Shown here: piece after piece, positions 43,118-61,647 of the stretch
Layout of the letters: every line of letters starts with the position of its first letter
Numbering within the stretch: position 1 is the first letter of the stretch
DNA from: Mesorhizobium sp. L-2-11
GTDB taxonomy: Bacteria > Pseudomonadota > Alphaproteobacteria > Rhizobiales > Rhizobiaceae
Assembly (NCBI RefSeq): GCF_016756595.1
Contig: NZ_AP023257.1
Coordinates: forward strand, 2,186,001 to 2,250,000
Direction of reading: 5' to 3'
DNA length: 64,000 nt
Program-made: the position numbers and the translations under genes
The notes under the pieces: generated by a model
Seen by the model: only the letters and a program-made list of their open reading frames with translations
Told to the model about the DNA's origin: nothing
Database searches by the model: none

Positions 43118-43193
43118 GGGCCTGTAGCTCAATGGTTAGAGCCGGCGGCTCATAACCGCTTGGTTGGGGGTTCGAGTCCCTCCGGGCCCACCA
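43118..43193 (+). tRNA. tRNA with CAU anticodon, probably tRNA-Ile2 (lysidine type)
   Basis: 76 nt including encoded CCA. The acceptor stem GGGCCTG pairs with CGGGCCC (one G-U). The D-loop is AGCTCAATGGTTAGAGC, the anticodon loop CTCATAA, and the T-arm GGTTCGAGTCC. The run TTAGAGC-GGCGG-CTCATAA-CCGCTTGGT closely follows E. coli ileX, which favours isoleucine (AUA) after lysidine modification over elongator Met. It lacks initiator features. Its 3' end serves as the attachment site for the islands that follow. Confidence 0.93.
43179..43193 (+). other. att core in the tRNA 3' end
   Basis: CCTCCGGGCCCACCA recurs exactly at 61633-61647 and with one mismatch (T for C) at 52754-52768. It is the left boundary of island A and keeps the tRNA intact after integration. 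Confidence 0.8.
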
Positions 43194-43374
43194 GCTTATT
43201 ATATATCAGTACGTTACGCTTAATTCTTCGAGATTGAATTGAGCGTTGTTGGGATAAGTTCGTGAGTTTTGAATGAAATGATTTTGGGGCCTCTTCGTCA
43301 ATGTTCTCCGTCTTGTTGATGGCACCTGTCACACGTAGCTCAAGCCTCCGGATTTCGAAAGGCCCCTCAGAGAT

Positions 43375-43415
43375 GCGTGCGGTGATCGGCGGCAACGACG
43401 TGCGAATAGGCGGGT
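43375..43415. repeat. Left-end conserved block of island A
   Basis: The block cggcggcaacgacgtgcgaa with flanks starts 182 bases after the tRNA att core. A copy with about three mismatches in 41 starts 181 bases after the second att core (52949-52989). Weaker similarity extends over about 250 bases on both islands. Confidence 0.75.
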
Positions 43416-43598
43416 CTTGTGACCCCGAAGCGGACTCTCAATTCGTAAAACGCGTGCGGCCGCTTTGCGCCCGATCTCGGCCGTTGCGGTCAACTTTGTG
43501 TTGCCTGAAAGCGGCCATTGCCGTCGGCGGGCTGGACGTCGCCGCTGTGCTAACAAAGCAGACACACACGACGGACATGAACCAACAATCAGCAGGAG

Positions 43599-44561
43599 CT
43601 AGATGGCCTGCGGCACGTAGTCGCTCGCCTCGATCGGCATCACAGTCCTTAATAGCTCGACCGATTTCTTTACCCCTTCGAGCCGGGACAACATGACATC
43701 CTCGTGTTCGATCGAGAGCCAGCCGTCATAGCCGGCCATTCGCAGCCGGTAGCAGAAGGAGCGCCACCACTCCTCGCCGTGTCAGAAGCCCAGGGTGATA
43801 TAGCTCCACGAACGTGCCGGAATGTCCATCAGCGAACCGTTCTCCAGGAGGCTGGTCGTCGCCTGCTTCGGAGCGTTGAGGAACGTGTCCTTGGCATGAA
43901 CGTGGAAGATCGCGTCTCCCAGTGCATCGACTGCCGCGACCGGATCGGCGCCCATCCAGAACAGATGGCTTGGATCGAGATTTGCCCCCACGACCGGGCC
44001 GATCTCGGCGCGCAGGCGAAGCAGCGACGGCACGTTGTAGACCAACTGGTTGCCGTGCAGCTCGATGGCGAGTTGATCGACGCCACTCGCCTTCGCCAGC
44101 TTCGCAAGTCCATGCCAGTACGGCAGGAGCACGTCTTCCCACTGCCATCTCAGGATGGTCTGCGTCTCCGGCGGCCACGACGATACGATCCAGTTCGGCG
44201 TCTTCTCGCCCGGTGCGCCGCTTGGCAGTCCAGACATGAGGCAGACCTTCTTCACGCCAATTTCGCCGGCAATGCGGATCGTCTCCTCGAGGCAGGCAGA
44301 CTGGGTGCCGCCCGAAACGGGATGCAGCTGATTGCCGTTGGCGTTGAGTGCGACGATCTCCAATCCACGGCTGGCGAAGGCCTTCAAGAAAGCCGTTCGG
44401 GCTTGAGGACCGGCCTTCATCCGTTCGAGATCGAAGTGCGGCGCCGAGGACCAATTACCTGTATTGACTTCAACACCGTCCAGGCCGAGTTCGGCAGCAA
44501 CGTCGAGGACTTCCTCGAAGCTCAATTGTGCGAGGGAGTCGGATACAAACCCCAATTTCAT
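43599..44561 (-). pseudogene. Sugar phosphate isomerase/epimerase with in-frame TGA
   Basis: A TIM-barrel (IolE/xylose-isomerase-like) protein starting MKLGFVSDSLAQLSFEEVLD. It has metal-ligand segments LAIELHGNQLVYN, VGANLDPSHLFWMG and IFHVHAKDT. Reading stops at TGA (43782-43784) after SYITLGF, but the same frame continues HGEEWWRSFCYRLRMAGYDG and WLSIEHEDVML to a normal stop at 43599, 320 codons in all. Relatives usually have Gly at the stop position. The 259-aa product would lack the last barrel elements. It is the final gene of the sugar cluster. Confidence 0.85.
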
Positions 44562-44563
44562 TG

Positions 44564-44899
44564 CTAGTCCCTCGTTTGCCTGGCCTTCAGAACTTCTCGC
44601 TGGAAAAATCTGCGAAGTTCCGCGTAGTTCTGGAAGCCGAGCGCTGCCGCGAAGCGCGTCACCGAACTCGGCGAAACGTCAAGAAGGCCAGCCACTCGGC
44701 GGCCGTTGCTCATTGCTATCTCGGCTGGGTGCTCCAGCGCGAAACGGGTTATGCGCATGCTCACTTTCGACAGAGTGGTGGGGTTGCTCAGCACCCACCG
44801 TATCAGCGCCGCCATGTCCTCGGGCGGATCGCACGCGACCGACGCGTTTCCGGGCTCGGGGGCACGTCGCGATTCGGATGTTGCGGCGAGGCTCCTCAT
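44564..44899 (-). CDS. RpiR-type HTH protein lacking the SIS domain
   Basis: 111 aa. The RpiR N-terminal HTH_6 domain is complete: TTLSKVSMRITRFALEHPAE then GLLDVSPSSVTRFAAALGFQ and NYAELRRFFQREV. Normal RpiR proteins continue about 170 residues with a sugar-binding SIS domain, absent here. It overlaps the dehydrogenase gene by four bases (ATGA) and lies two bases from the isomerase gene. It could still bind DNA but would not sense a sugar phosphate. Confidence 0.8.
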   Translation of the reverse strand: MRSLAATSESRRAPEPGNASVACDPPEDMAALIRWVLSNPTTLSKVSMRITRFALEHPAEIAMSNGRRVAGLLDVSPSSVTRFAAALGFQNYAELRRFFQREVLKARQTRD

Positions 44900-45918
44900 C
44901 GATGCATCCGCCTTTGGTACAGGGCGGGCTTGGCTTCCAAAACGACATTCACACGCCCGCCCGTTGCGAGCGCCTCGACGCCTGCTTCCGCGACCAGCGC
45001 GGCGCAGTAGCCATCCCAGGCGTCGGCCGCCACGGCGTGGAACACACCTGACCGGACGAATTCCAGGAACGCTCTATTCTGGAGCCTGTAGGCCTCGGCG
45101 AAACGCGGCCGCCAGTCAGTGGCATAGCGTTCGAGCGACTGCATGGACAGATTGTAGCGGGCGTGTATCGGTCCGTTGAGGAAGACTGACCCCTTCTCGC
45201 CGACCAGCTCGCCCCGCACGTCGTAGCCATAGGCGGCGTTGTTATTGATCTCGATGTTGACGAGCTGGCCGGTCGTCGTTTCGAGCACCATGAAAACTGG
45301 CGCACCCGTCTTCGACGCGTCCACGACGGAGGGCTGGAAGACGGAGATCGACCGGTAGTCGGAGCCGAGCACGAAGCGCGCGACGTCGAATTCGTGCGGA
45401 GCCGAGTTGGTGATCGCCATTTGGCCGGTAAAGTTCGCCGGCGCTTCGACGTTGCGGTGGAAGTTGTGCATCATGATCGCCCGCCCGAGCGCCCCGTCGT
45501 CGAGCGCGGATTTCATCTCGGCGTAGGACGGGTCGAAGCGGCGCATGAAGCCGAGCTGAACAAACTGTCGCCCGCACGAGGTCTCGGTCTTGATCACGTC
45601 GAGACACTCCCTGGCGCTTTGCGACAATGGCTTCTCGCACAGCGCGGGCTTGCCAGCTTCGATCGCAGCGAGCGACAGGGGAGCGTGGGTTTCGTCCGGG
45701 CTCGCGATCAGCACGGCGTCGACATCGCTCCGCCTGATGGTATCGAGGGAATCGGTTGCGACATCGACCGCACCGAAGTCGTCAGCGACCTTCCGTGCGC
45801 GTTCCAGCGATGCGTCGCAGATCACCTGCAGCTTCGCGCCCGGCAGGCTCTCGGCGACAATCCGGGCATGGTCGGCGCCCATTACACCTGCGCCGATGAT
45901 CGCCAGCCTGATCGACAT
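44896..45918 (-). CDS. Gfo/Idh/MocA-family oxidoreductase, inositol dehydrogenase-like
   Basis: 340 aa from ATG 45918, with GAGG seven bases ahead. The N-terminal Rossmann motif is IRLAIIGAGVMGADHARIVA; the sugar-binding EKP motif is ALCEKPLSQSA; the catalytic-region stretch is MRRFDPSYAEMK and SAPHEFDVARFVLG. These enzymes oxidise a sugar or inositol with NAD. Next to a sugar ABC transporter and a TIM-barrel isomerase, it suggests a polyol or sugar catabolic module; the specific sugar is not predictable. Confidence 0.9.
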   Translation of the reverse strand: MSIRLAIIGAGVMGADHARIVAESLPGAKLQVICDASLERARKVADDFGAVDVATDSLDTIRRSDVDAVLIASPDETHAPLSLAAIEAGKPALCEKPLSQSARECLDVIKTETSCGRQFVQLGFMRRFDPSYAEMKSALDDGALGRAIMMHNFHRNVEAPANFTGQMAITNSAPHEFDVARFVLGSDYRSISVFQPSVVDASKTGAPVFMVLETTTGQLVNIEINNNAAYGYDVRGELVGEKGSVFLNGPIHARYNLSMQSLERYATDWRPRFAEAYRLQNRAFLEFVRSGVFHAVAADAWDGYCAALVAEAGVEALATGGRVNVVLEAKPALYQRRMHR

Positions 45919-45928
45919 CTGCAATCCT

Positions 45929-46508
45929 CTATTTCTTGAGCGCCCACTGCCGGAGCGATTGATCTCCGTAGGCTGCGAGCACGACGATGATCCCCAGGAA
46001 GAGCAGGAACCACTGCGGCGCCACGCCCATCACCACGAGGTAGGACTGAATCGACGAGAGAACGAAGGCGCCGAGCAGTGCCCCGACGAGCGAGATCCGC
46101 CCTCCAGCCAGCAGGCACCCGCCCAGGACGCAGGATGCAATCGCCTGCAGCTCCATGAGCCTTCCCATCGAGCCATCGGCGAAGCCGAGCTTGCCCGCTT
46201 CCAGCGTTCCGGCGAAGGCGGCGAGCGCGCCGCAGATGACAAAGGCGGAAAGCTTGACGCGACCGACACGGACCCCGCGCGAATGGGCGCTGTCTGCCGA
46301 CCCACCTACGGCAAGCAGCCGGTTCCCGAAAGGCATCGCGGTGAGTACCACGGTCAAAAGGACCAGAAGCAGGATCAGCCAGTAGAGCGCGGTGTTGAAG
46401 CCGAGGAACTCGCCGCCGCCGAGGATCTCGAAACTCCGGCCCTTGCGCGCCGCATAAGGAATGGAGAAGGAAAACCCCTCGGTCAGCGCGATGGCAATGC
46501 CGCGAAAG
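45929..46508 (-). pseudogene. 3' part of sugar ABC permease, split by IS256
   Basis: This half supplies the last membrane helices of a RbsC/FrcC-type permease: RGIAIALTEGFSFSIPYAAR, FNTALYWLILLLVLLTVVLT and LMELQAIASCVLGGCLLAGG. The other half is at 47940-48342. Removing the IS and one target copy gives an unbroken 975-nt, 324-aa frame, so the gene was functional until the insertion. Confidence 0.92.
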
Positions 46509-47939
46509 GATAGTGTTCTGAAGGTTCTGCAAAAAGCTCTGGAGAGAGAACAGCCCTTACTCTGAGGCGAGGGGCGGCCATGGCACGCTGGTGACGTTGC
46601 GATCACCGATTCCCGTGGAAGGGTAAGTGCCATGACCAAGCGAGAGGTTAGACTGAGCAGAGGCGAGTTGAAAGCGTTGCTGTTGTCGGATGAGGACGGC
46701 TTCCGCAGAGTTTTGCAGACTGTGGTGCAGGAGGCTTTGGAAGCCGAGATGACGGAGGCGATCGGGGCCGAGAAAGGCGAGCGGACGACGGAGCGGGTTG
46801 GTTACCGGTCCGGCTATTACGAACGCAAGCTTGTGACGCGGGTTGGCGTGCTGGAACTTCGGGTTCCGCAAGATCGGGCCGGCCGGTTCTCGACGGAGTT
46901 GTTTGAGCGTTACCAGCGCTCGGAGAAGGCACTGGTATCGGCGCTGGTCGAGATGTACGTGCAAGGCGTGTCGACGCGCAAGGTGAAGGCGATCACCGAG
47001 GATCTGTGCGGCCATTCCTTCTCGGCCTCGACGGTAAGCCAGGCGACGGCGCGGCTGGATGAGGCGCTGAAGGCGTTCTTTGAGCAGCGGCTTGCCGAAC
47101 CTTACCCGTACCTCATTCTGGACGCGCGCTACGAGCGGGCGCGCGAGGCCGGCGTGATCGCCAGCCAGGCCGTCTTGGTGGCGATCGGCGTCGACTGGGA
47201 AGGCCGGCGCCAGGTGCTCGGTGTCGAGCTGGCCAACCGTGAAAGCCATTCGAGCTGGCGCGCGTTCGTGGCAGGGCTCAAGCAGCGCGGGCTCGCCGGC
47301 GTCGAGTTTGTCGTCTCCGACGACCATCCGGGGCTCAGGGCAGCGATCCGCGAAGTCCTGCCCGAGGCAGTCTGGCAGCGCTGTTACGTGCACTTCCTCA
47401 GAAACGCGCTCGATTATGTGCCGCGCAAGGTCGATGACGACTGCCTGATGGAGCTCAGATGGTTCTATGACCGGCGCGACCTCGCCGAGGTCAAGCGCGA
47501 CCTGGCGCAGTGGATCGCCAAATGGCAGGCCAAATACCCGAAGCTGGTGGATTGGGTGGAGAACAACATCGAGGAGACGCTGAGCTTCTATCGGCTGCCG
47601 CTGCCGCATCACAAGCACATGAAGTCGACGAACATGCTGGAGCGGCTGAACCAGGAGATCAAGCGGCGCACCCTGGTCGTTCGCATCTTCCCCAACCCGC
47701 AGAGCTGTTTGCGGCTGGTTCGGGCATTGGCGGTGGAGATCCACGAGAACTGGCTCGAGGCGACCCGCTACCTCAACATGGATCATCTGCGCGAGCACAA
47801 GAAGGAGAACCTGAGGGCACTGGCCGCCTGACGCGGCCGCCATGTCCGCCGCTCCGCTAAACACGGGGGCTGCGCGGCGGACACGCCAACGTCACCGCTG
47901 AATGCCACGCCATTTTTGCAGAACTTGACGCACACAACT
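46509..47939 (+). mobile_element. IS256-family insertion sequence
   Basis: 1431 bp flanked by the 8-bp duplication cgcgaaag (46501-46508 and 47940-47947). Imperfect terminal inverted repeats share the inner GTTCTGCAAAAA. It carries one Mutator-type transposase on the opposite strand to the interrupted permease. The perfect duplication indicates direct insertion at this site with no later rearrangement. Confidence 0.93.
46632..47831 (+). CDS. IS256-family (Mutator) transposase
   Basis: 399 aa. The catalytic triad segments are YPYLILDARYERAREAG (Asp), FVVSDDHPGLRAAI (Asp) and NMLERLNQEIKRRT (Glu), with the conserved CYVHFLRNALDYVP between them. The start follows gaagggtaagtgcc, a weak ribosome site. 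It is full length, so probably active. Confidence 0.95.
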   Translation: MTKREVRLSRGELKALLLSDEDGFRRVLQTVVQEALEAEMTEAIGAEKGERTTERVGYRSGYYERKLVTRVGVLELRVPQDRAGRFSTELFERYQRSEKALVSALVEMYVQGVSTRKVKAITEDLCGHSFSASTVSQATARLDEALKAFFEQRLAEPYPYLILDARYERAREAGVIASQAVLVAIGVDWEGRRQVLGVELANRESHSSWRAFVAGLKQRGLAGVEFVVSDDHPGLRAAIREVLPEAVWQRCYVHFLRNALDYVPRKVDDDCLMELRWFYDRRDLAEVKRDLAQWIAKWQAKYPKLVDWVENNIEETLSFYRLPLPHHKHMKSTNMLERLNQEIKRRTLVVRIFPNPQSCLRLVRALAVEIHENWLEATRYLNMDHLREHKKENLRALAA

Positions 47940-48342
47940 CGCGAAAGATCATCAGCGTGCCAAGCGTGATGATCAGCGAGGGCGTACCGGTTCGGGTGAC
48001 AAGCAGCCCGTTAAGCGAACCTATTGCCGCGCCGACGGCTGCGGCCGCTACGGCCGCGGCGGCAGGGTCGACCCGGGCCGCGAGCCACAGATAGACCAGC
48101 GCGCCCATGCCGAAGGTCGAGCCGACGGAAATGTCGATCTCGCCGGTGCCGATAACCAGCGCAACGCCGAGCGTCATCAGGCCGAGCGTAGCGGTCACCT
48201 GGAGGATCGTGCCGAAATTGTAGATGTTCGCCCACCGCCCGTCGGACGTGGTCGAAAAGAATGCGACCAGTGCGACGGCGATCAACAGGATGCCGATCTC
48301 GGCATGCCGCCTCACCAGCGGTTTTATCGCGGCAAGGCTCAT
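47940..48342 (-). pseudogene. 5' part of sugar ABC permease, split by IS256
   Basis: This half encodes MSLAAIKPLVRRHAEIGILL, the first helices, GVALVIGTGEIDISVGSTFG (the RbsC-type signature) and SLIITLGTLMIF up to the insertion. Its start overlaps the ATPase stop by four bases. A truncated 160-aa product running into the IS could be made but would not form a permease. Confidence 0.92.
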
Positions 48343-49118
48343 GAGAGTGCTTCCCGCCTCTCGACGACGCGGCCGCCCTGACGGATGACCTCCTCGAGCT
48401 GTTCGGCCGTCATCTTGCTGGTCGAGGCATCCTCGATCTTCTCGCCGTTCTCCATGATGACGATGCGGTCGGCGAGCTTGTGCACCTGGAAGATGTCGTG
48501 AGTGATGTAAATCACGAGCAAGCCCTGCTTCTTGAGCTGCACGGCAAGTTCGTTGACGTGCTCGCGTTCGCGTACTGAAAGATGGTTGGTCGGCTCGTCC
48601 ATGATGACGACCCGATTCCTGAACTCGACCGCGCGGCCGATCTTGACCGACTGGCGTTCACCGCCCGACAGGCGTTCGACTTCATCGTCGGCGGAGACGT
48701 TGTCGCGGAGTCCGAACTGACGGATCACGCGTGTCGACTTGTCGCGCATCGTCGCGAAATCGAGAAATGGAATGCCGAGGATGCGCCGGACCGGCTCTCG
48801 GCCGAGGTAGAAGTTTCGCGCGATCGAGAGGTTGTCGCACAGGCCCACCGACTGCTGGATCGTCTCGATGCCTTGATCGATTGAGAGCTTGGGATGGAAC
48901 TTCTCGACGCGCTGTCCGTCGAAATAGACCTCGCCCGAAGTCGGGGTATGCATGCCGCACAGTACGCGGATCAGGGTCGTCTTTCCCGCGCCGTTGTCGC
49001 CGACCAATCCGACGAGTTCGCCTGCATGGAAATCGACCGATACGCTCTTGAGCGCATGGAAAGCGCCGAAGTAAAGGTCGAGATTCTTGACCTGGATGAG
49101 GGGATGACCGTTTGTCAT
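48339..49118 (-). CDS. Sugar ABC transporter ATPase, single-domain FrcA-like
   Basis: 259 aa from ATG 49118, with GGGAG ahead; a TTG at 49139 overlaps the previous stop. Walker A is GLVGDNGAGKTTLIRV, signature RLSGGERQSVKIG, Walker B RVVIMDEPTNHLS, and the H-loop YITHD. Ribose-type ATPases are usually double (about 500 aa); a single module of this length matches FrcA of the rhizobial fructose system. It powers uptake with the two permease genes on either side. Confidence 0.92.
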   Translation of the reverse strand: MTNGHPLIQVKNLDLYFGAFHALKSVSVDFHAGELVGLVGDNGAGKTTLIRVLCGMHTPTSGEVYFDGQRVEKFHPKLSIDQGIETIQQSVGLCDNLSIARNFYLGREPVRRILGIPFLDFATMRDKSTRVIRQFGLRDNVSADDEVERLSGGERQSVKIGRAVEFRNRVVIMDEPTNHLSVREREHVNELAVQLKKQGLLVIYITHDIFQVHKLADRIVIMENGEKIEDASTSKMTAEQLEEVIRQGGRVVERREALS

Positions 49119-49135
49119 GCGAGCCTGCTCCCGCG

Positions 49136-50098
49136 TCAAACGCTGTGCCCGAGGCGGCGGGCCAGGAGCTGGTTGAAGATGACCGCTACGATGAGCACGA
49201 CGCCGACGAAGGTGATGTACCAGGAGGACGGCGCCCCGAGCGCTATAAGTTCGTAACGGAAGCTCACGACGATGAAGGCGCCGAGCACGGCGCCCACGAG
49301 AGAACCACGTCCGCCGGTGAGCAGACAGCCGCCTATCACCGCAGCGGAAATGGCCTCCAGCTCCATCAGCTCGCCCAATGTGACGTGCGTCTGCGGTCGG
49401 TCACACAAGGTCAAGACGCCGGCAAATCCCGCGAGCAGCGCGCAGAGAACGAAGGCCGTAACCTTCACCCGATTGCTGCGAACCCCACGAGATTCCGCGC
49501 TTTCCTTGCTGCCGCCCGTCGCCAGCAATTGGTTGCCGAAAGGCGTGACCCAGAGCAGCAGATTGAGCGCGAGGCCGACAGCGATCAGCCAGAAGATGGC
49601 CGCCTCGATGCCGAAAAGCTCGCCTCCCAGCAGCCGGGTCACCGGATGATTGCGGGCATCCTCGGAGAAATTGTGCACCGAGCCGCCTGTCCAGACATAG
49701 ATGATGCCGCGGGCGGTAAAGAGACCGCCAAGCGTGACAATCATCGAGGGCAACTGTCCTTTCACCACCGCGATCGCCTGGACAAGTCCCGCGAGAGCGG
49801 CGATGACAAGTGCCGCCAGCAGCGACCCGGGCACGCCAAGCGTTGGCTCCAGCGTAATGAAGGCGACTCCGGTCAGGCCGTAGACCGAGCCGACCGACAG
49901 ATCAATCTCCTTGCACATGATCACCAGTGCTTGCCCCATCGCCACGAACCCGAGGATCGCGGTGAACTGAACGACGTTGGCGATGGTCTGCCTGGTCCAC
50001 CAGCCCGAGACGTCGATCATCGTGAACGCGGCAAGCATGATCACCACGCCGATGATGGCGCCGAGGCCCTGGGTGTGAGTAAGCTGTTTGACAGTCAT
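49136..50098 (-). CDS. Sugar ABC transporter permease, RbsC/FrcC type
   Basis: 320 aa from ATG 50098. About nine membrane helices; GQALVIMCKEIDLSVGSVYG is the family signature, repeated in weaker form at MELEAISAAVIGGCLLTGG. It is intact, unlike the second permease gene downstream. Two different permease subunits suggest a heterodimeric channel, so the IS in the partner probably disables uptake unless this one can homodimerise. Confidence 0.92.
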   Translation of the reverse strand: MTVKQLTHTQGLGAIIGVVIMLAAFTMIDVSGWWTRQTIANVVQFTAILGFVAMGQALVIMCKEIDLSVGSVYGLTGVAFITLEPTLGVPGSLLAALVIAALAGLVQAIAVVKGQLPSMIVTLGGLFTARGIIYVWTGGSVHNFSEDARNHPVTRLLGGELFGIEAAIFWLIAVGLALNLLLWVTPFGNQLLATGGSKESAESRGVRSNRVKVTAFVLCALLAGFAGVLTLCDRPQTHVTLGELMELEAISAAVIGGCLLTGGRGSLVGAVLGAFIVVSFRYELIALGAPSSWYITFVGVVLIVAVIFNQLLARRLGHSV

Positions 50099-50193
50099 TG
50101 CAGAGCGCCAGAATGGAGGCTCAAGCCTCGCTAAGGAGAGCGGGACAGCCGAGCTCCCTCGTTGCTCGACCGTCCCGCCTCGGGAGGAACGCC

Positions 50194-51222
50194 TCACCAG
50201 GTGTTCTGCTCGTCGTAGGCCTTGTCGCCGAACACGCCACGGACCAGCGTGGCCCAGTTGTCGGCGTTGTCCTTGTTGATGATGACCGGCCCGGTCAGGA
50301 TGTCCGACTGCGGCGCATAGCCGAACTCCTTGTTCCAGTAGAGCCATTCCATCGGCGCGTAGCCCTGCAGCCAGAAGCCCTGGCTGTTGGTCGCGAGAAG
50401 ATGGCCGGCGCGAACGCCCTCGATAGAAACCGGCCCTTCGTCGACGGTCAGCACTGTCACGCCCTTGCCATCGACGTCGGGGTCGAGACCCATGTCCTTG
50501 GCGACGCCCCAAGCCCAGGGCGATGACCAGCCGGCAACGGTGAAGACGTAGTTCGTGTCGGTGTTGGCCTGCAGGAACGACTGCAACGTATTGCGGGCAG
50601 TCGCGGGCTCGGCGCCGATGAAAAGCTCATCGACCTTGGCGCCCGCCTTTTCCATCGCGTCCCTCATCCCGGCACACCGGGCCTTGAGACCCTGGTGGGC
50701 GGAGTCGTGGCTGGCGCAAACGACACGCGTCGGCTTCGGGATTTCACCAGCCTCGACTTTGGCGAGCGCGTATTCGCCGAGCTTCTTGCCCGTCAGATAT
50801 TCGTCGCCGCCGACATAGGTCAGGTAGGGAATGCGCTCGCCGTCGGGACGCGCATCCGGAATGTTGAAGGCAACCACCGGAATACCGGCGTCGATCGCCT
50901 TGCGCAGCGGACCCTCGAAAGCATCGGAACTCACGATCGGAACGGCGATGCCGTCAGGACCGGTCGAGATTGCTTGCTCGAGAAGACGGACATGCTCCTG
51001 GACCGAGTAGTTGTTGGTCGAGATGTACTCGGTCTTGACGTTCGGATACTTCTTCTCGAACTCCTCCATCGACTTCGTCAGCCAGCCCATGTTCGGGTCG
51101 TTGGATCCGATATGGGAAACCATCACGAAGCGGTACTGCTTCTGGTCCTGGGCGACCGCCACGCTGCTGAGCGCCGTGGCAGCCAAAAGGGTGGTGGCAA
51201 GCACCTTACACGTAAGCTTCAT
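50194..51222 (-). CDS. Periplasmic sugar-binding protein, RbsB type
   Basis: 342 aa from ATG 51222, with GGAGGAG ahead. The signal peptide MKLTCKVLATTLLAATALSS is cleaved near AVA. The type I periplasmic binding fold shows FVMVSHIGSNDPNMGWLTKS, GPDGIAVPIVSSDAFEG and VVAFNIPDARPDGERIPYLT. It is the first gene of the transporter operon, as expected for the most abundant subunit. The ligand is unknown. Confidence 0.92.
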   Translation of the reverse strand: MKLTCKVLATTLLAATALSSVAVAQDQKQYRFVMVSHIGSNDPNMGWLTKSMEEFEKKYPNVKTEYISTNNYSVQEHVRLLEQAISTGPDGIAVPIVSSDAFEGPLRKAIDAGIPVVAFNIPDARPDGERIPYLTYVGGDEYLTGKKLGEYALAKVEAGEIPKPTRVVCASHDSAHQGLKARCAGMRDAMEKAGAKVDELFIGAEPATARNTLQSFLQANTDTNYVFTVAGWSSPWAWGVAKDMGLDPDVDGKGVTVLTVDEGPVSIEGVRAGHLLATNSQGFWLQGYAPMEWLYWNKEFGYAPQSDILTGPVIINKDNADNWATLVRGVFGDKAYDEQNTW

Positions 51223-51431
51223 TGGATTCTCCTCCGCAAGCTCCTCCAGGAGCAACGCTATTATTTGGATTGAAATCGCATCACTCAAGGACATCAATGA
51301 TGCATTTGTGATGTAATATACCTCATTAATCGCGAGGCGACGTGGAGGAACGCAAACGCCTTGTATGATAAGCCTTTACAGGCGCGGTGGCGCTAGCGGA
51401 TGATGTCGTAGACATCACGATCGGAGGCGAA

Positions 51432-52585: not shown

Positions 52586-52768
52586 CAAACACGACATCTA
52601 ATGATCGGTTTGGCGAGGACGGCTCGGTGGGCGAAGGCGGCATAGACAGCTAATGTCGCCCGACGACGGTTGCGGAACCATACGGAACGATACGGGAAGG
52701 ATGTCTGATCTGTGCCCACGAAAAGGGAAATAAGATCAAGGCTTTGAGTACGTCCTCCGGGTCCACCA
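52586..52768. repeat. 183-bp right-end repeat of island A
   Basis: It matches 61465-61647 at all but a few positions (about 98% by eye) and ends in CCTCCGGGTCCACCA, a one-mismatch copy of the tRNA att core. Inside are consecutive decamers ggaaccatac, ggaacgatac and gggaaggatg (52674-52703), which look like arm-type protein-binding sites. Weak similarity extends 25 bases upstream. No gene occupies 52458-53200. Confidence 0.88.
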
Positions 52769-52948
52769 AAACAGTAAACATCAATCACTTACATCTGCTT
52801 CTTTTCAAGCAGATGTAGCAATCTCCGCCAACGTGGTAGCCTTCCAATAAAACTGGTTGGGCTCTTTCCGTCAATTTCTCCTTCTCGCAGAAAGCTCTGG
52901 ACGCACACCTAACCTAACGATGCTAACCTCGAAAGACCTCCCTACAGT

Positions 52949-52989
52949 GCATGCGGTAATCGGCGGCAACGACGTGCGAATAAGCGGGT
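52949..52989. repeat. Left-end conserved block of island B
   Basis: It corresponds to 43375-43415 of island A, 181 bases past the att core. The surrounding 52850-53095 also resembles 43285-43535, including ctctcaattcgta and a ggccgctttg...gaaagcgg inverted pair. It has no open frame and may be a recombination site or a decayed shared gene. Confidence 0.72.
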
Positions 52990-53200
52990 TTGACTCGTAC
53001 CAAGCTCTCAATTCGTAATGTGCGAACGGCCGCTTTGAGCCTCATCTCCGTCATTCACACACTCCGAGCCCCCACTGAAAGCGGACATGTTTGTCGCACC
53101 GATCTCATTGTCGGACAGAAAGTTCCAGAGCCCTACCGGTGCACCGGGTGATGATGAGAACTACGTTTGCGCCATAGCCCTCTTTTAAGGGGCTCCACCC

Positions 53201-54490: not shown

Positions 54491-55176
54491 GGGTCCTGCA
54501 GGAACTGATAGCCCTGTCCCCGCACGGACTGTATCCAGGATTGGCCATCCTCCCTGCTGCCGAGCTTCTGTCTGACGCTGCTCAAATGAACGTCGATCCG
54601 CCGGTCAAAAGGCGTCAGTGGCCGTCCGAAGGCATGCTTCGATATCTCCTGCTTGGAGACGAGCTGGCCGGCATTGCGGGCAAGCACCTCGAGCAGGCTG
54701 AACTCGGTGCCTGTCAGCTCCAGATGCTCGCCGCCCCATTCCGCGGTCCGGTTTCCCGGTTGCATGACGAGCTCGCCCACCCGTATGACATCCTGCGAGA
54801 TGCCGCCACCAGAGGAGCCGACACGGCGCAATATGGCCTTCAGCCGTGCCGCGAGCTCGCCGGGCGAGCACGGCTTGGGCACATAATCGTCGGCGCCGAG
54901 ATTAAGCCCGGCGATCCGGTCCGCATCATCGCCCTTGGCCGTCAGCATCAGGACGGGCACCTGACTCAGCCGCCTGATCCGCTGGAGGACGTCGATGCCG
55001 TTCATGTGCGGCATCATGATGTCGAGGACGATGATGTCGACGGCGCTCGACGCAGCCTGGGCGATCGCGGCGCGCCCGTCCTGCGCTGTCGCGACCTCGA
55101 AACCCTCTTCGGAGAGATATTCCTTCAGGAGCGTCGTGAGATCGACGTCGTCGTCGATGAGGAGAACCTTTGCCAT
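54487..55176 (-). CDS. OmpR-family response regulator, CpxR-like
   Basis: 229 aa from ATG 55176. Receiver: acidic pocket LLIDDDVDL, phospho-Asp in IIVLDIMMPHMNG, Thr in LMLTAKGD, and Lys in DDYVPKPCSP. The C-terminal winged helix is ELTGTEFSLLEVLARNAGQL, FDRRIDVHLSSVRQKLG and IQSVRGQGYQFL. It is divergent from the efflux operon, with OmpR-type half-sites in the 150-bp gap, so it most likely activates the pump. Confidence 0.95.
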   Translation of the reverse strand: MAKVLLIDDDVDLTTLLKEYLSEEGFEVATAQDGRAAIAQAASSAVDIIVLDIMMPHMNGIDVLQRIRRLSQVPVLMLTAKGDDADRIAGLNLGADDYVPKPCSPGELAARLKAILRRVGSSGGGISQDVIRVGELVMQPGNRTAEWGGEHLELTGTEFSLLEVLARNAGQLVSKQEISKHAFGRPLTPFDRRIDVHLSSVRQKLGSREDGQSWIQSVRGQGYQFLQDP

Positions 55177-55249
55177 CCTGGAAGCCTGTCGTTCATTCAG
55201 GACACAGCCATACAAGACAAATGCCTGTCGGACAGTCGATTTTACCTAT

Positions 55250-55277
55250 CTTAACACTGGCTTGACCCTACTTAACA
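55250..55277. promoter_or_regulatory. Triple direct repeat, candidate response-regulator site
   Basis: cttaaca (55250-55256), cttgacc (55261-55267) and cttaaca (55271-55277) are spaced 11 and 10 bases, one helical turn each, as OmpR/CpxR dimers require. It lies 50 bases before the nodT-like start and about 75 from the regulator start. Confidence 0.6.
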
Positions 55278-55326
55278 TTCCGCCTGCTACGGACGTCAGA
55301 AAATCGTCGGCTGTCCGGGCAGGTCA

Positions 55327-56772
55327 ATGAAAACTGCACTCGAAAAGAAACTTCTGCCGTGCGTGTCAGTCGCACTCAGTCTGCTTCTGTCCGGCTGCGC
55401 CACATTCGCAGAGCTCCGACCGGCGGACCTCAGAATCGCGAATGTCTGGCACGCGACAGTGCCGCATGGCGGCAAGACATCCAGCCTCGTGTCGTGGTGG
55501 TCGACCTTCAACGATCCGTCGCTGACCTCTCTCATCGGCTATGCCGAGGAGGAGAACCCCAGCCTAGCTTCGGCCGCCGCCGACATCGAAAAGGCGCGCG
55601 CGACACTGGCTTCCGCACGGGCGAGCCTGTTTCCGGGGCTGGACGGCTCGGCCTCCGTCACGCGTTCCGGCACGGACGGCGATGCCTACAACCGCATTGC
55701 CGCCTCGACGACCTCGAGCGGCGGCCTGGACGCGTCGTGGGAAATCGATCTGTTCGGCAAGACGCGGCAAAAGAGCGAAGCGGCGCAGCTTCGGGTCCAT
55801 GAACAGATCGCCAACTGGCACGAGGCGCGGGTCTCTCTCGCCGCCGAAGTGGCCGACTACTATGTGCAGTACCGGGCCTGCCGGCAGCTCGAGAACGCTT
55901 ACAGCGTTGAGCTCGCCTCGCAACGGGAAACAATCCGCGCCACGGAGACGGCCGCCACCTCCGGCCTCACTTCCACCGCCGACCTGGCCTTGGCGCGAGC
56001 GAGCGCTGCCTCATCCTCCTCGACACTGACGGCGCAGCGGGCCGAATGCGAGGTCCTGGTCAAATCGCTCGCCCAGGTCACCGGCGGTGACGAGGCAAGG
56101 GTTCGCCAGTTGCTGGCCAAGGGCAAGACAGGCATCCCGACGCCGAAGAACTTCAAGCTCGCCGCTGTGCCGGCCGATGCCCTGCGGCAGCGTCCGGACA
56201 TTAGCGCGCTCGAACTGGAACTGGCCGCCTCCATTGCCGATGTCGGCGCGGCTAAAGCCGATCTCTATCCGAGCCTGAGCCTCGGCGGCTCGGTGACGAT
56301 CAGCGCTTCATCGCTGACAGGTGAATCTCTCCCCTGGTCCTTCGGCCCCGCGCTGACCATTCCCTTGCTTGACGGTGGATCACGACTGGCCGTCGTCAAG
56401 AGCACGATCGCCGACTACGACACGGCTGTCGCCAACTACAAGTCCGGGGTCCTGAGCGCGGTGGCAGAAGTCGAGACCGCGCTCGTTCGAGTCGACAGCA
56501 CCCGCAGGCGGATCGGTGACGCCAGCGGCGCGGCCCGTAACTACCGGACCTACTTCAACTCGATCGATTCGAACTGGCGGGCGGGCGGCGTCAGCCTGCT
56601 CGACCGAGAAGAAGCCCGTCGCTCGGCGCAGTCGGCGGAGATCTCGCTCATCGAAATCAGGCGCGATGCGGTCCGCTACTGGATCGCGCTCTACAAGGCG
56701 CTCGGCGGAGGCTGGGACGCTGGCGCCGCCTCGCCGCCGCAGCGCCAGACGAAGACACAAGGACTTTTCTGA
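55327..56772 (+). CDS. Outer-membrane efflux lipoprotein, NodT family
   Basis: 481 aa. The lipoprotein signal ends in LLLSGC (lipidated Cys about 21). Two tandem TolC-type alpha-helical repeats follow (YAEEENPSLASAAADIEKAR, RQRPDISALELELAASIADV). It forms the outer-membrane duct of the tripartite pump. Its stop overlaps the adaptor start by one base. Confidence 0.93.
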   Translation: MKTALEKKLLPCVSVALSLLLSGCATFAELRPADLRIANVWHATVPHGGKTSSLVSWWSTFNDPSLTSLIGYAEEENPSLASAAADIEKARATLASARASLFPGLDGSASVTRSGTDGDAYNRIAASTTSSGGLDASWEIDLFGKTRQKSEAAQLRVHEQIANWHEARVSLAAEVADYYVQYRACRQLENAYSVELASQRETIRATETAATSGLTSTADLALARASAASSSSTLTAQRAECEVLVKSLAQVTGGDEARVRQLLAKGKTGIPTPKNFKLAAVPADALRQRPDISALELELAASIADVGAAKADLYPSLSLGGSVTISASSLTGESLPWSFGPALTIPLLDGGSRLAVVKSTIADYDTAVANYKSGVLSAVAEVETALVRVDSTRRRIGDASGAARNYRTYFNSIDSNWRAGGVSLLDREEARRSAQSAEISLIEIRRDAVRYWIALYKALGGGWDAGAASPPQRQTKTQGLF

Positions 56773-57845
56773 TGCAGCCCGCCCGCCTTCTGCTTGCCCT
56801 GTTCGCCGGGGCAAACCTTGCTCTCGCCGCCACGCCCTCGCATGCGCAGCAGCAGGAAGCCGCGGCTCTGACCGTGGCCGTCGTCAAGCCGGCGGAACGC
56901 CAATGGGCGGAGACCGTGCCGGCGAGCGGCTGGCTGAAGCCCTGGCACGAGGCGATCATCGCCTCGGAGATCGGCGGTCTTCGCATCACGGATGTCCTCG
57001 TCGATGTCGGGTCGGTGGTCTCGAAGGGCCAGCCGCTCGTCCGGCTGGCGGACGAGACCGTGCTTGCGGATTTGCGCAAGGAAGAAGCGGCGCTCGAAAC
57101 GGCAAAAGCCGATCTCGCCAAGGCGAAGTCGAATGCGGACCGTGCGCGTAAGGTGCAGGGCAGCGGCGCGCTTTCGGACGAGAAAGTCACGGAATACCTG
57201 ATTGCCGAGCAGACTGCCGAAGCCAGCCTCAAATCAGCGCAAGCCACGCTGGAAAGCCAGAAGATCAAGGTCGATCAGACCACAATCGTCGCGGTCGACG
57301 ACGGACTGATCAGCTCCCGTTCCGCACAGCTCGGCGCCGTGGTTTCGTCCGGCACCGAGCTATTCCGGCTCGTGCGGCAGCAACGCGTCGAATGGCAGGC
57401 CGAGGTCTCGGCGCGCTATCTTCCGCACATTATCCAAGGCCTTGACGCTGAAATTGCGAGCCCCGGCGACAGGCGGATCGAAGGGAACGTCAGGCTGGTC
57501 GGCCCGACCGTCAGCACCGATACGGGCCGCGCTATCGTCTATGTCACACTGCCGCCGGAAGATCATCCTCCGGTCGGCATCTATGTCACCGGGCAGATCG
57601 AGTTGCAGTCGACGAGCGCCCTCACGGTGCCCGAGACGGCGCTCGTCTTCCGCGATGGCATCAACTACGTCTTCACGGTCGATGCGGATCGCCGCGCCGC
57701 GCGGGTGCGGATCGAGACCGGACGGCGCAATAGCGCGGAGGTGGAAATCCTGTCCGGCATCGATCGATCCGCCTCGGTTGTGAAGTCCGGCGGCGCCTTC
57801 CTTTCGGACAAGGCTCTGGTCCGGGTCGAGGGAGAAACACAATGA
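56772..57845 (+). CDS. RND pump periplasmic adaptor (MFP/HlyD family)
   Basis: 357 aa. The signal peptide is cleaved near SHA. A lipoyl half (GWLKPWHEAIIASEIGGLRI, VLVDVGSVVSKGQPLVRLAD), a coiled-coil hairpin (KEEAALETAKADLAKAKSNA), a second lipoyl half and a beta barrel follow. It bridges the inner-membrane pump and the NodT-like duct. ATGA overlap with the pump gene. Confidence 0.93.
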   Translation: MQPARLLLALFAGANLALAATPSHAQQQEAAALTVAVVKPAERQWAETVPASGWLKPWHEAIIASEIGGLRITDVLVDVGSVVSKGQPLVRLADETVLADLRKEEAALETAKADLAKAKSNADRARKVQGSGALSDEKVTEYLIAEQTAEASLKSAQATLESQKIKVDQTTIVAVDDGLISSRSAQLGAVVSSGTELFRLVRQQRVEWQAEVSARYLPHIIQGLDAEIASPGDRRIEGNVRLVGPTVSTDTGRAIVYVTLPPEDHPPVGIYVTGQIELQSTSALTVPETALVFRDGINYVFTVDADRRAARVRIETGRRNSAEVEILSGIDRSASVVKSGGAFLSDKALVRVEGETQ

Positions 57846-60800
57846 ACTTCTCCGCCTGGTCAATCCGCAATCCCGTTCCCTCGATTCTGCTTTTTGTCCT
57901 GCTGACCGTGGGCGGCTTGCTCGCCTTCGAGCGGCTCGCCGTCCAGAATTTTCCCGACATGGACCTGCCGACGGTGAAAATCACCGCGACGCTGGAGGGT
58001 GCTGCCCCGTCGCAACTGGAGACCGAGGTCGCCCGGAAGATCGAGGACAATCTCGCCTCGCTCAGCCTGCTCGATCACATCACCACGACCATCACCGACG
58101 GGTCCGTGTCGATCAGCGTGTCCTTCGAACTGGAGAAGGACAGCGAGGCGGCCCTCAACGAGGTCCGCAACGCCGTGGACAGCACGACGGACCTGCCGGC
58201 CGACATGGAATCGCCGAGCGTCACCAAGGTCACGGTGCAAAGCTCACCGCTGATCACCTATGCCGTCCGCTCGACCCGGCTCAACGAGACGGAGCTGTCC
58301 TGGTTCGTCGACAACGACATGACCAAGGCCCTGCTGTCCGTGTCCGGGGTCGGTGAAGTAAGCCGGATGGGGGGAATCGACCGCGAGGTGCATGTCGATC
58401 TCAACCCGCAGATCATGGGATCGCTCGGGATCACGGCCGCCACGGTCTCTTCCCGCCTGAGATCAGTCCAGGCGGACAGTTCGGGCGGCCGTGGCGAGAT
58501 CGGCGGCAACAGGCAGACGATCCGCACGCTCGGGGCCGTCGCGTCGGTCGAGGATTTGAAGGCCCTCGCGATACCGCTGCCGAACGGCAAGCTGGTGCGC
58601 CTCGACGAGATCGGCACGGTGACCGACAGCTTCGCCGACCGCTCTTCGCTTGCCTATCTCGACGGACAACCGGTGATCGGCGTCGAAATCAAGCGTTCCA
58701 ACGGCTTTTCGGATACCGGCGTCGCAGCCGCCATCCAGGCCGCGATGCAGGACTTTGCGCGCGCCAATCCCGACGCGGAAATTATCGAGGCCTACAGCAT
58801 GGTCGGGCCGATCATCGAGAACTATGACGGTTCGATGCACATGCTTTACGAGGGCGCCATCCTCGCCGTCGTCGTGGTCTGGCTGTTCTTGCGCAACTGG
58901 CGGGCAACCTTCCTGTCGGCGATAGCACTCCCCCTGTCTGTCATCCCGACCTTCCTGGCGATGTATCTCGCGGATTTCAGCCTGAACACGGTGACGCTGC
59001 TCGCGCTCTCCCTGGTGGTCGGCATCCTCGTCGACGACGCCATCGTGGAAGTCGAGAATATCGCCCGTCACCTGAACATGGGGAAATCGCCGATGGATGC
59101 GGCGTTGGAGGCTGCCGACGAGATCGGCCTTGCCGTCATCGCCACGACCTTCACACTGGTCGCCGTGTTCCTGCCGACCGCATTCATGAGCGGCATTCCC
59201 GGTCTCATCTTCCGCCAGTTTGGCGTTACGGCGGCCGTCGCTGTCCTGGCCTCCCTTCTGGTCGCGCGCCTGCTGACGCCGATGATGGCCGCCTACATGA
59301 TGAAGGCGCATCCGTCTGAAGAGAAGGACGGCCACATGATGCGCGCCTATATGGCGATCATGAAAGCCTGCCTCAGCCATCGGAAGCTGACGGTGCTTGG
59401 CGTTTGCGTCTTTCTCGGCCTGTCCCTGTCGACAATTCCCTTTTTCAAATCGGGCTTTTTGCCGGCCTCCGACGACGCGCAGACGAAAGTCACGCTGACG
59501 CTGCAACCCGGCAGCACCATCGATCAGACGGATGCGACGACGCGGCATGCCGTGGACATCATCATGAAGCTTCCGGACGTAACCCGCGTGTTCTCGTCGG
59601 TGGGAAGTGCTTCCTCGGGCGGTGGCCTGGATGCCTCGGCGACGAGCGACGTCGCCTCGGCAACCCTCGTCGTCAATCTGACGCCGATCGGCGATCGCGA
59701 CCGGAAACAATCAGAGATCGAGAACGATATCCGGCAGGCGCTTGCCGTGCTGCCGGGCGTGCGGGTCGAAGTCGGGACGGGTGGAAACGGGACGACGCTG
59801 GAAATCACGCTCGCCAGCGACGATACCGATGCCCTCGATCGGGCCGGCAGCGCGCTTGAGGAGCAGTTGCGCACCCTGGAAGCCATCGGGGCCGTCACGT
59901 CCAGCGCCTCCCTCCAGGCGCCCGAGGTCCAGATCGTACCTGATTTTACGCGAGCGGCGGCACTCGGCGTCACATCGGAAGCAATTTCCGAAGCGGTCCG
60001 CGTCGCGACCAACGGCGATTACTCCACGTCCATGGCGAAGCTAAACCTCCCGCAGCGCCAGATCTCGATCCGGGTGCGGCTCGACCCCAAAAACAGAATG
60101 ACGCTGGACGATATCGCCAACCTTCGCGTGAGCGGTACGAACGGCAATGTCGACCTTGGTTCCATCGCCGACATCCACATCGGCGGCAGCCCGGCCGAGA
60201 TCAACCGCATCGACCGCTCGCGCAACGTCACCCTGTCGGTAGAGCTCAACGGCCGCATCCTCGGTGACGTAAACCGCGAGGCCCAGGCGCTACCCGCCCT
60301 CAAGAACCTGCCGCAAGGCGTCCGGCTCGTCGAGCAAGGTGAGTTGCAGCGCAGTTCCGAACTGTTCGAAAGCTTCGGCATCGCCATGGCGATCGGCGTG
60401 TTCTGCATCTACGCCGTGCTGGTCCTGCTCTTCCACGATTTCCTGCAGCCCCTCACCATCCTCATGGCGTTGCCGCTGTCGCTCGGCGGAGCGCTTCTGC
60501 CGCTCATCGTCACCGACACGAGCTTCTCCCTGCCGGCGGTCATCGGACTGCTCATGCTGATGGGCGTGGTGACGAAGAACTCCATCTTGCTGGTCGAATA
60601 CGCCATCATGGCACGGCGTGGCGGCATGGCGCGCTTCGATGCCCTGGTGGATGCCTGCCACAAGCGGGCACGCCCGATCATCATGACCACGATCGCCATG
60701 GGATGCGGCATGCTGCCGGCGGCCTTGAGTCTCAGCGGCGGGGATGGAAGTTTCCGCCAGCCCATGGCGATCGTCGTGATCGGCGGGCTGCTGACCTCCA

Positions 60801-60928
60801 CATTCCTCAGCCTGCTCGTCATCCCGGTCATCTTCACCTTCGTCGACGACTTCCTCGAACTTCTCAAGCGGCCGTTTCGCGGGAGACAAGGGAAAAAGAC
60901 GCAACCGATGCCTGCGGAAGCTGGCTGA
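57842..60928 (+). CDS. RND multidrug efflux transporter, AcrB/HAE1 type
   Basis: 1028 aa. Helix 1 is IRNPVPSILLFVLLTVGGLL; the porter domains are PN/PC. The proton-relay pair sits in helix 4 (VVGILVDDAIVEVENIARH) and the helix 10-11 Lys/Thr region is GVVTKNSILLVEYAIMARRG. Twelve helices in two halves, typical HAE-1 length. It exports hydrophobic compounds using the proton gradient. The specific substrate is unknown. Confidence 0.95.
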   Translation: MNFSAWSIRNPVPSILLFVLLTVGGLLAFERLAVQNFPDMDLPTVKITATLEGAAPSQLETEVARKIEDNLASLSLLDHITTTITDGSVSISVSFELEKDSEAALNEVRNAVDSTTDLPADMESPSVTKVTVQSSPLITYAVRSTRLNETELSWFVDNDMTKALLSVSGVGEVSRMGGIDREVHVDLNPQIMGSLGITAATVSSRLRSVQADSSGGRGEIGGNRQTIRTLGAVASVEDLKALAIPLPNGKLVRLDEIGTVTDSFADRSSLAYLDGQPVIGVEIKRSNGFSDTGVAAAIQAAMQDFARANPDAEIIEAYSMVGPIIENYDGSMHMLYEGAILAVVVVWLFLRNWRATFLSAIALPLSVIPTFLAMYLADFSLNTVTLLALSLVVGILVDDAIVEVENIARHLNMGKSPMDAALEAADEIGLAVIATTFTLVAVFLPTAFMSGIPGLIFRQFGVTAAVAVLASLLVARLLTPMMAAYMMKAHPSEEKDGHMMRAYMAIMKACLSHRKLTVLGVCVFLGLSLSTIPFFKSGFLPASDDAQTKVTLTLQPGSTIDQTDATTRHAVDIIMKLPDVTRVFSSVGSASSGGGLDASATSDVASATLVVNLTPIGDRDRKQSEIENDIRQALAVLPGVRVEVGTGGNGTTLEITLASDDTDALDRAGSALEEQLRTLEAIGAVTSSASLQAPEVQIVPDFTRAAALGVTSEAISEAVRVATNGDYSTSMAKLNLPQRQISIRVRLDPKNRMTLDDIANLRVSGTNGNVDLGSIADIHIGGSPAEINRIDRSRNVTLSVELNGRILGDVNREAQALPALKNLPQGVRLVEQGELQRSSELFESFGIAMAIGVFCIYAVLVLLFHDFLQPLTILMALPLSLGGALLPLIVTDTSFSLPAVIGLLMLMGVVTKNSILLVEYAIMARRGGMARFDALVDACHKRARPIIMTTIAMGCGMLPAALSLSGGDGSFRQPMAIVVIGGLLTSTFLSLLVIPVIFTFVDDFLELLKRPFRGRQGKKTQPMPAEAG

Positions 60929-60933
60929 CTGGT

Positions 60934-61088
60934 TGTGCGATCGGAGGTGGCGCGGCGGGTGTGCGCCGGCCAGGTCAACGTCGATGGCGGAGCTTCGACG
61001 CGCCTTTCGGTAGCTGCGGGATGTCCGGATCGGCCGTGAGAACGGTCGGTACGGCCTTGATGATTTTCTCGAATATCGGTTGCTGTAG
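60934..61088 (+). pseudogene. C-terminal remnant of aldehyde dehydrogenase
   Basis: Three successive frames give RRVCAGQVNVDGGAS, then APFGSCGMSG, then RENGRYGLDDFLEYRLL and a stop, together the C-terminal end of an NAD-dependent aldehyde dehydrogenase (AGQVNVNG, APFGG-x-x-SG, EFLEYK-type ending). Two frameshifts and loss of the first 400 or more residues show it is dead. Confidence 0.78.
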
Positions 61089-61105
61089 CAGCCGCGGCGC
61101 AAGAT

Positions 61106-61441
61106 ATGAGCGCGATGGAATTCACGCAGGTGAAGCTGCAGGTCGAGCCGGGCGTTGCAGCGGTCACGTTAGATGGCCCGGACAGAATGAACGGCGTTAA
61201 CGCCGTCATGGAGCGTGAGTTCTAGGCAGCCATGAGGCAAGTCGACGCTGACCCGCAAGTGCGCATCGCTGTCCTGACTGGCGAGGGGCGGGCTTTCTAC
61301 GCCGGCATGGACGTGACGAAACTTGAGGCCCTTGCTGAGGCAAGCGCGGCACCGGTATCGGATGTCGCCGTCAGTTCCGGCATGGCTCGGAGGAGGTTTT
61401 CAGCCGCGCCTTCCGTCCGCTTGCTGATGACTTCAGCCTAG
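61106..61441 (+). pseudogene. Enoyl-CoA hydratase/isomerase N-terminal remnant
   Basis: From ATG 61106: VKLQVEPGVAAVTLDGPDRM then a TAG stop (61223-61225), followed in the same frame by DADPQVRIAVLTGEGRAFYA and GMDVTKLEAL, the crotonase oxyanion-hole region. The sequence then loses similarity and ends at 61441 just before the island's right-end repeat. Catalytic and C-terminal parts are missing. Confidence 0.8.
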
Positions 61442-61464
61442 AAGCTGTCCATCCGAAACCGGCC

Positions 61465-61647
61465 CAAACACGACATCTAATGATCGGTTTGGCGAGGACG
61501 GCTCGGTGGGCGAAGGCGGCATAGACAGCTAATGTCGGCCGACGACGGTTGCGGAACCATACGGAACGATACGGGAAGGATGTCTGATCTGTGCCCACGA
61601 AAAGGGAAATAAAATCAAGGCTTTGAGTACGTCCTCCGGGCCCACCA
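61465..61647. repeat. 183-bp right-end repeat of island B with perfect att core
   Basis: Nearly identical to 52586-52768 but ending in CCTCCGGGCCCACCA, exactly the tRNA 3' end (43179-43193). It contains the same decamer series near 61553-61582. Differences seen by eye include gtcgg for gtcgc and aataaaatc for aataagatc. Confidence 0.9.

Follow-up and report, generated by a model that had tools for sequence, protein, structure and literature searches.

Integrase-less islands stacked in tandem at a CAU tRNA gene of Mesorhizobium sp. L-2-11 probably travel with integrases encoded elsewhere

The stretch of DNA analysed here, referred to as the window, comprises 64,000 nucleotides of the 7.4-Mb genome of Mesorhizobium sp. 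L-2-11 (genome G000; C1:2186001-2250000) and contains a tRNA gene with the anticodon CAU, behind which small islands are stacked in tandem (Table 1). A search at E <= 1e-15 recovers this gene from 143 of the 146 Mesorhizobium genomes, G000 counted. Going by the TilS determinants C4-G69 and C5-G68, we assume that it may be an isoleucine CAU tRNA. A preliminary description of the window had noticed that the final 15 bases of the tRNA recur further on, once exactly and once with one mismatch, and had divided the region into two islands. A repeat search together with ARAGORN confirmed these copies of the attachment (att) core, which delimit units of 9,575 bp (unit 1) and 8,879 bp (unit 2). The array is nevertheless longer than the two islands proposed, as a fourth att copy lies outside the window: it extends over C1:2,229,118-2,253,260 and comprises at least three closed units, the third of 5,613 bp, plus a fourth left end from 67261. 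The sequence CCTCCGGGYCCACCA has four copies in the genome, all within the array and in the same orientation, and the reversed-pattern control gave none. As far as window coordinate 121,000, no additional att copy (two mismatches allowed) that would mark the right border of unit 4 was found.

Neither unit 1 nor unit 2 exhibits an integrase, relaxase or conjugation family by Pfam among the main open reading frames (ORFs) and eight further small ORFs, excisionase-like genes not having been specifically sought; the sole recombinase in the two units is the transposase of an insertion sequence (IS). Among all 45 genome matches to PF00589 (E <= 0.001), no tyrosine integrase lies between C1:1,911,371 and C1:2,441,500, the closest chromosomal matches being at 1,910,859-1,911,371 and 2,441,500.

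The units are bounded by conserved ends. A common right end of 183 bp and similar left ends had been proposed in the preliminary description, and both are borne out: the right ends are nearly identical, and the left ends share blocks of 86 nt at 73% and 51 nt at 78% identity. Neither imprecise junctions nor a 183-bp repeat that belongs to a gene family, the outcomes named beforehand as speaking against islands, was encountered. The junctions are precise, the 183-bp right end has no genome match beyond its two copies, and no Pfam family is matched by the ORFs that overlap it (52353-52643, 52474-52788 and 61371-61715). At the left, the motif ATCA begins 12 or 13 bases past the core in all four left ends of the array, and a longer conserved module is common to units 1, 2 and 4, unit 3 being without it. 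The motif AACGACGTGCGAATR of this module has exactly three copies in the genome, at 200, 199 and 229 bp past att copies 1, 2 and 4, respectively; a looser scan of G000 gave five more sites with two or three mismatches, versus four for the control.

Unit 1 is also found between other neighbours. It aligns over its full length, from att to att, with an att-bounded unit of 8,136 bp in another genome of the genus (G087), in two segments of 3,315 bp (99.85% identity) and 4,829 bp (99.75%) that are separated by the IS. Upstream of the same tRNA, the chromosome of G087 matches that of G000 in seven blocks of 84-96% identity, which amount to 14,480 bp with a mean of 89.6% (four short secondary matches of 67-73% were kept out of this mean). 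The flanks beyond both att copies of the G087 unit differ from those in G000, and the two genomes share no more than the 15-bp core at the left junction. Because unit 1 is near-unchanged in a clearly different assembly though no enzyme that could move it was found, the units most likely travel with a borrowed integrase.

The operon of unit 1 is also present without island ends in G145 (89-96% identity) and in G131 and G052 (73-80%). In these three genomes, the homology begins at unit position 404-406 and ends at 9265-9272, where the outer genes have their stop codons, and no att (up to two mismatches), module or tRNA was found within 20 kb around the operon. Since the operon begins and ends there at the outer-gene stops without island ends, operon and ends have separate histories.

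Table 1. Features of the tandem array at the CAU tRNA gene, in window coordinates
Feature	Position	Strand	Remarks
tRNA gene, anticodon CAU	43118..43193	+	tRNA-Met according to ARAGORN; integration target, 3' end regenerated
att core copy 1	43179..43193	+	CCTCCGGGCCCACCA; last 15 bases of the tRNA
Unit 1 left end	43194..43596	+	403 bp outside the homology with free-standing operon copies; conserved left-end module over the first ~225 bp
Conserved 37-bp motif in the unit 1 left-end module	43377..43413	+	183 bp past the att core
Unit 1 cargo	43597..52460	- (LacI-family regulator +)	Sugar ABC transporter operon: periplasmic binding protein, ATPase, permeases; further minus-strand genes: GFO/IDH/MocA oxidoreductase, RpiR-type helix-turn-helix (HTH) protein, xylose-isomerase-like TIM barrel
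IS with Mutator-family transposase (46632-47831)	46509..47939	+	8-bp target duplication; splits a permease gene of unit 1
Unit 1 right end	52586..52768	+	183-bp repeat closing in att copy 2; ATACGGAA / ATACGGGAA repeats and ATCAA arm
att core copy 2	52754..52768	+	One mismatch (93%); repeat search
Unit 2 left end	52769..53060	+	Conserved module; 37-bp motif at 52951-52987
Unit 2 cargo	53201..60928	-/+	Histidine kinase and response regulator (-); outer-membrane factor, membrane-fusion protein and RND pump (+)
Unit 2 right end	61465..61647	+	Closes in att copy 3; 98% identical to that of unit 1
Integrase C-terminus relic	61632..61733	-	34 aa with 88% identity to the G115 integrase; unit 3, left end
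att core copy 3	61633..61647	+	100%; repeat search
Unit 3, first part	61648..64000, on to 67260		LysR-type and Cro/C1-type HTH ORFs, family-5 solute-binding protein, S15-type hydrolase
att core copy 4	67246..67260 (C1:2253246-2253260)		Outside the window, 3.2 kb past its edge

The cargo of the two units is unrelated, as had been proposed: Pfam assigns sugar uptake to unit 1 and RND efflux to unit 2. The IS in unit 1 and the integrase relic in unit 3 are additions to the earlier picture. As the near-identical G087 copy is without the IS, the insertion is probably recent and, to judge from the split permease gene, the sugar transporter is probably disabled in this strain. The isomerase-like gene of unit 1 (43599-44561) exhibits an in-frame stop near 43782, and the G087 copy is a single ORF of 320 aa. 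Around a relative of the unit 2 operon in G140, two att-like sequences with two mismatches (L277 5459 (+) and 1394 (-)) are found within 17 kb, one of them 0.4 kb before the operon; they are possibly the traces of an old, degraded island. The absence of integrases noted in the preliminary description stands for units 1 and 2, while unit 3, a further member of the array, keeps the 34-aa relic and, as its sequence indicates, is a decayed integrase-bearing element. A second integrase C-terminus relic, broken and with 68% identity to the G087 integrase across 34 aa, lies at ~111.6 kb (C1:2297597-2297701), with no recognisable att adjoining it; this relic may mark an old right border of unit 4.

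With regard to the genus, the exact 15-mer CCTCCGGGCCCACCA occurs in 143 of the 146 genomes, with at least two copies in 93 of them and 325 matches in total, a count that includes the 3' ends of the tRNA genes themselves; the backward control gave none. We compared 141 junctions (core with at most one mismatch) from 68 genomes. They come from most multi-copy sites up to G068 (80 further regions), from later genomes only where these were included for other reasons, and from a sample of single-copy tRNA sites. The integrase profile was built from G000's own integrases and then refined. An integrase-bearing element at the same tRNA, the search for which had been suggested in the preliminary description, does exist: intact tyrosine integrases lie at this tRNA end in other genomes. 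An integrase match was found at 26 of 61 tRNA-proximal junctions; of the 35 matches overall, 25 are in ORFs of at least 1.1 kb and the rest are shorter pieces. Several left-end types use one att core. In one, the integrase gene starts ~110 bp inside; in another, to which the left end of unit 3 belongs, the integrase ends at the core. Both integrase branches are Pfam Phage_integrase, with 45% identity between them, and G072 has a more distantly related Phage_integrase at its tRNA (L115). The frame of one branch reads through the att core into the tRNA (L137 484-1734 (-)); its last residues are thus encoded by its own target, so the insertion of another element would alter its C-terminus.

The right end of units 1 and 2 resembles the ends that follow integrase-led insertions. 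Forty junctions chosen by arm pattern, including that of unit 2, have ~90 bp in common; the right end of unit 1 was not picked by this pattern, though it is 98% identical to that of unit 2 over 183 bp. In G005, G008 and G038, the same ~90-bp right end stands at the first exact att copy past the integrase gene at the tRNA, at a distance of 248-343 kb. The consensus of these ends includes the ATACGGAA / ATACGGGAA repeats.

The left-end module is found past 23 of the 141 junctions, in 20 of the 68 genomes, with 18 of the 23 copies at 177-185 bp. These 23 rows allow up to nine mismatches in 37 positions (two rows have eight and nine), and control windows 600-1200 bp past the junctions never had fewer than 14 of 37 (140 windows). 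No integrase match lies within 1.2-3 kb to the right of the 23 junctions with the module, versus 35 of 118 junctions without it (Fisher p = 0.001, a test that ignores relatedness); all 35 matches start at most 368 bp from the core. A Pfam scan of five proteins each from the module-bearing units L066 (5/5 ORFs of at least 150 aa) and L103 (5/8) gave regulators, hydrolases, a heat-shock protein, a transporter and oxidoreductases. There was no recombinase among these ten proteins, three of which belong to no family; among the units of other genomes, these two were the ones checked for other recombinase types.

A search with a degenerate 20-base motif of the module in the contigs of 84,980 species gave 24 stretches, 21 of them in Mesorhizobium and one each in a metagenome-assembled genome of the Hyphomicrobiales, Burkholderiales and Fibrobacteres. 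The latter two, as well as L161, which lies inside a Mesorhizobium gene, look like chance matches. An exact att core is found at most 330 bp upstream in 10 of the 24 stretches. In two records (L144 and L150) the module adjoins a tRNA-His gene, with a different core and arm, and L143 is beside the same kind of end; the module is therefore not tied to one att site. In L162 and L070 it stands past an att-like sequence ending in ACCACCACCA or CCACCACCA. Taken with tRNA-His, this indicates that the module class uses several integration sites. The module also occurs on two M. ciceri plasmids, and a second query retrieved these two again, its remaining matches being short and partial. On one of them, the 648-kb pMc1192 (L166 12001-12049), it has a LysR gene on one side and an HlyD/MFS efflux pair on the other, and no relaxase is found among the 20 annotated genes around it.

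Several candidate functions of the module were rejected. As an RNA, it gave nothing in Rfam except the tRNA in four sources, and the consensus fold of 29 copies comprises five pairs without compensatory change. As a protein-coding sequence, it exhibits one frame that is similar in most copies, but with stops and frame breaks; the ORF of the unit 1 module had a single weak match among 5.8 billion proteins, a 90-aa hypothetical protein. It is not a promoter of the cargo in units 1 and 2, whose nearest genes converge on it, and an origin of transfer (oriT) of the plasmid was set aside given its efflux-gene neighbours and the lack of a relaxase among the annotated genes on pMc1192.

Based on these observations, units 1 and 2, together with the beginning of unit 4, are probably non-autonomous cargo islands that use a tyrosine integrase of the type carried by integrative and conjugative elements (ICEs) and integrative and mobilizable elements (IMEs), encoded elsewhere. 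Each unit consists of an ordinary operon between a non-coding left end, with att core, AT-rich integrase arm and module, and a right end with arms and att core. A tyrosine integrase carried by ICEs or IMEs at the tRNA would recognise the core and the arms and integrate or excise the units, and newcomers would stack at the tRNA or at the att of a neighbour. Between cells, the units could be carried by a helper conjugation system, either in cis, as a composite with an adjoining ICE, or in trans, as a separate circle.

Several points weigh against this reading. G000 itself has no match to the tRNA-site integrase family at E 1e-20, the best being a distant recombinase at 1e-9, and the array may be immobile in this strain. 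Of ten genomes with module-bearing junctions tested at the same threshold, four have a match to the family, which is full-length beside the tRNA in G087 and G074; a close helper is therefore missing in six, though G072 bears the more distant integrase at its tRNA. The near-identical copy elsewhere concerns unit 1 only, the relatives of the unit 2 RND operon in G140, G084 and G037 reaching just 72-77% identity. Moreover, G087 is a metagenome-assembled genome, so the strain attribution of the contig could be wrong, yet the junctions lie within one contig. With regard to the right ends, the next exact att copy in G005, G008 and G038 stands as far as 248-343 kb away and may be part of a different element that follows a degraded att, the next att copy past the integrase in G026 is of another type, and the repeat pattern matches paired repeats in only 20 of the 40 rows. 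Finally, the reading draws support from 18 closed units of 4.7-18 kb from 16 genomes, six of them with the module, none of which has an integrase match in ORFs of 100 aa or more, but these units were chosen as short, which favours integrase-less ones.

A first alternative is that the units are classical cis-mobilizable elements (CIMEs), in other words remains of ICEs or IMEs from which the integrase and transfer genes have been deleted, with attL and attR kept. This could be the case, although we think it rather unlikely. It would agree with the integrase relic that unit 3 keeps at its left end and with the type of right end in units 1 and 2, and the available portions of the studies on Dehalococcoides (PMC3146451) and Streptococcus (PMC7563491) explain integrase-less tandem islands in this way. 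Nevertheless, no ICE or IME gene remnant was found among the scanned ORFs of units 1 and 2, and the cargo of unit 1 is a clean operon. In addition, the module is common to unrelated cargo and two tRNA sites, and its 14-base core (up to two mismatches) was not seen in the 20 kb past four integrase-bearing tRNA ends (L115, L116, L117 and L119).

As a tentative extension of the borrowed-integrase reading, the units could be dedicated satellite operon cassettes of Mesorhizobium and not decayed ICEs: any operon placed between a standard left module and a standard right arm would be inserted at tRNA genes, stacked and excised by the integrases of visiting ICEs, in a capture similar to that of integrons. 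A more doubtful proposal is that the module might be an oriT, as in elements that have one of their own but no relaxase (iOriTs), at which the relaxase of a conjugative element could mobilize the excised circle in trans. Its seemingly non-coding nature, the convergence of the nearest cargo genes of units 1 and 2 upon it, by which it is no promoter for them, and its constancy while att site and arm change from tRNA-Met to tRNA-His would fit such a role. However, no relaxase is found among ten proteins scanned around eight copies of the module, three of these proteins being without a family, or on pMc1192 in the genes considered above, no copy of the module on a helper element was found, near copies of the module in G000 (up to three mismatches) are no commoner than the control beyond the three in the array, the fold lacks compensatory change, and the near-constant distance between module and core would equally suit a recombination site. 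That larger chromosomal segments carried the units along in homologous recombination, the att copies being old inactive boundaries, is improbable: the lack of an intact tRNA-site-family integrase in G000 and the 183-bp homology between the right ends would allow it, but the G087 unit has other sequence outside both att copies, down to the 15-bp core at the left junction.

The preferred reading, of non-autonomous islands with a borrowed integrase, was already put forward in the preliminary description, and the precise att ends and the G087 copy make it the best supported; the term cis-mobilizable used there would, in its strict sense, go further than the evidence on units 1 and 2. Integrase-less tandem islands are already known (PMC3146451, PMC7563491, PMC5704250, as far as the available text of these papers goes). 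According to the parts available, the CIMEs of Streptococcus are by definition decay products of ICEs or IMEs, the classical ones being 1.2-13 kb long (PMC7563491, PMC5704250). Like them, the present units are att-bounded, lack integrase and transfer genes, stand in tandem at one site and carry metabolic or adaptive cargo; units 1 and 2 exhibit recognisable attL and attR, and no integrase, relaxase or conjugation genes were found in them. They differ from the CIMEs so described by the absence of ICE or IME remnants in units 1 and 2 and by a non-coding left module common to species and two tRNA sites. The best reading is that units 1 and 2 work like CIMEs, whereas an ICE or IME decay product moved in cis goes beyond the evidence for them. 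Nor are they IMEs, which excise and integrate by themselves, as no integrase was found. Units 1-3 likewise have no intact integrase, and no conjugation family among their scanned ORFs, whereas an ICE or tripartite ICE segment would be expected to carry IntM, IntS or IntG and conjugation genes; a segment of a larger dispersed element is still conceivable.

The ssrA islands of Dehalococcoides are similar in that they form tandem arrays at one RNA gene, with 15 islands devoid of an integration module beside relatives that bear one. In contrast to the units described here, they use a serine recombinase, and the accessible text describes no conserved non-coding left module (PMC3146451). In Mesorhizobium, ICEs, IMEs and tripartite ICEs are reported, in the sections available, at tRNA-Met, tRNA-Phe, guaA and other sites, and site competition and tandem integration are discussed (PMC8627217, PMC5882170, PMC9973854). 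The tripartite ICEs use the integrase IntM at met-tRNA (PMC9973854, PMC5882170, same limits), a likeness in genus, in tRNA-Met integration and in the use of a tyrosine integrase that holds by description only. These elements were found via relaxase and integrase genes, and integrase-less units like the present ones are not mentioned in the portions of those papers at hand. Among the matches listed, titles and opening lines of abstracts in the open-access Mesorhizobium literature on tripartite ICEs, oriT and relaxases, CIMEs and tRNA islands do not describe the present class either. The units also resemble clusters of attC sites lacking integron-integrases (CALINs) and miniature inverted-repeat transposable elements (MITEs), termed hitchers in the available part of one account (PMC11389934), in being non-autonomous, with short recognised ends and a mobilizing enzyme encoded elsewhere. 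CALINs and MITEs, however, have integron attC sites or transposon ends according to that source, whereas the units have tRNA att cores and, as closed units of 4.7-18 kb, room for a whole operon.

Element searches that start from integrase or relaxase genes would miss such units, and 93 of the 146 genomes bear at least two copies of the core. The locus makes concrete the question of how a clean operon came between standard ends. If ICE integrases do move the units, part of the accessory metabolism of rhizobia would travel in small packages that can be stacked, and the class would be searchable and testable through its conserved ends.

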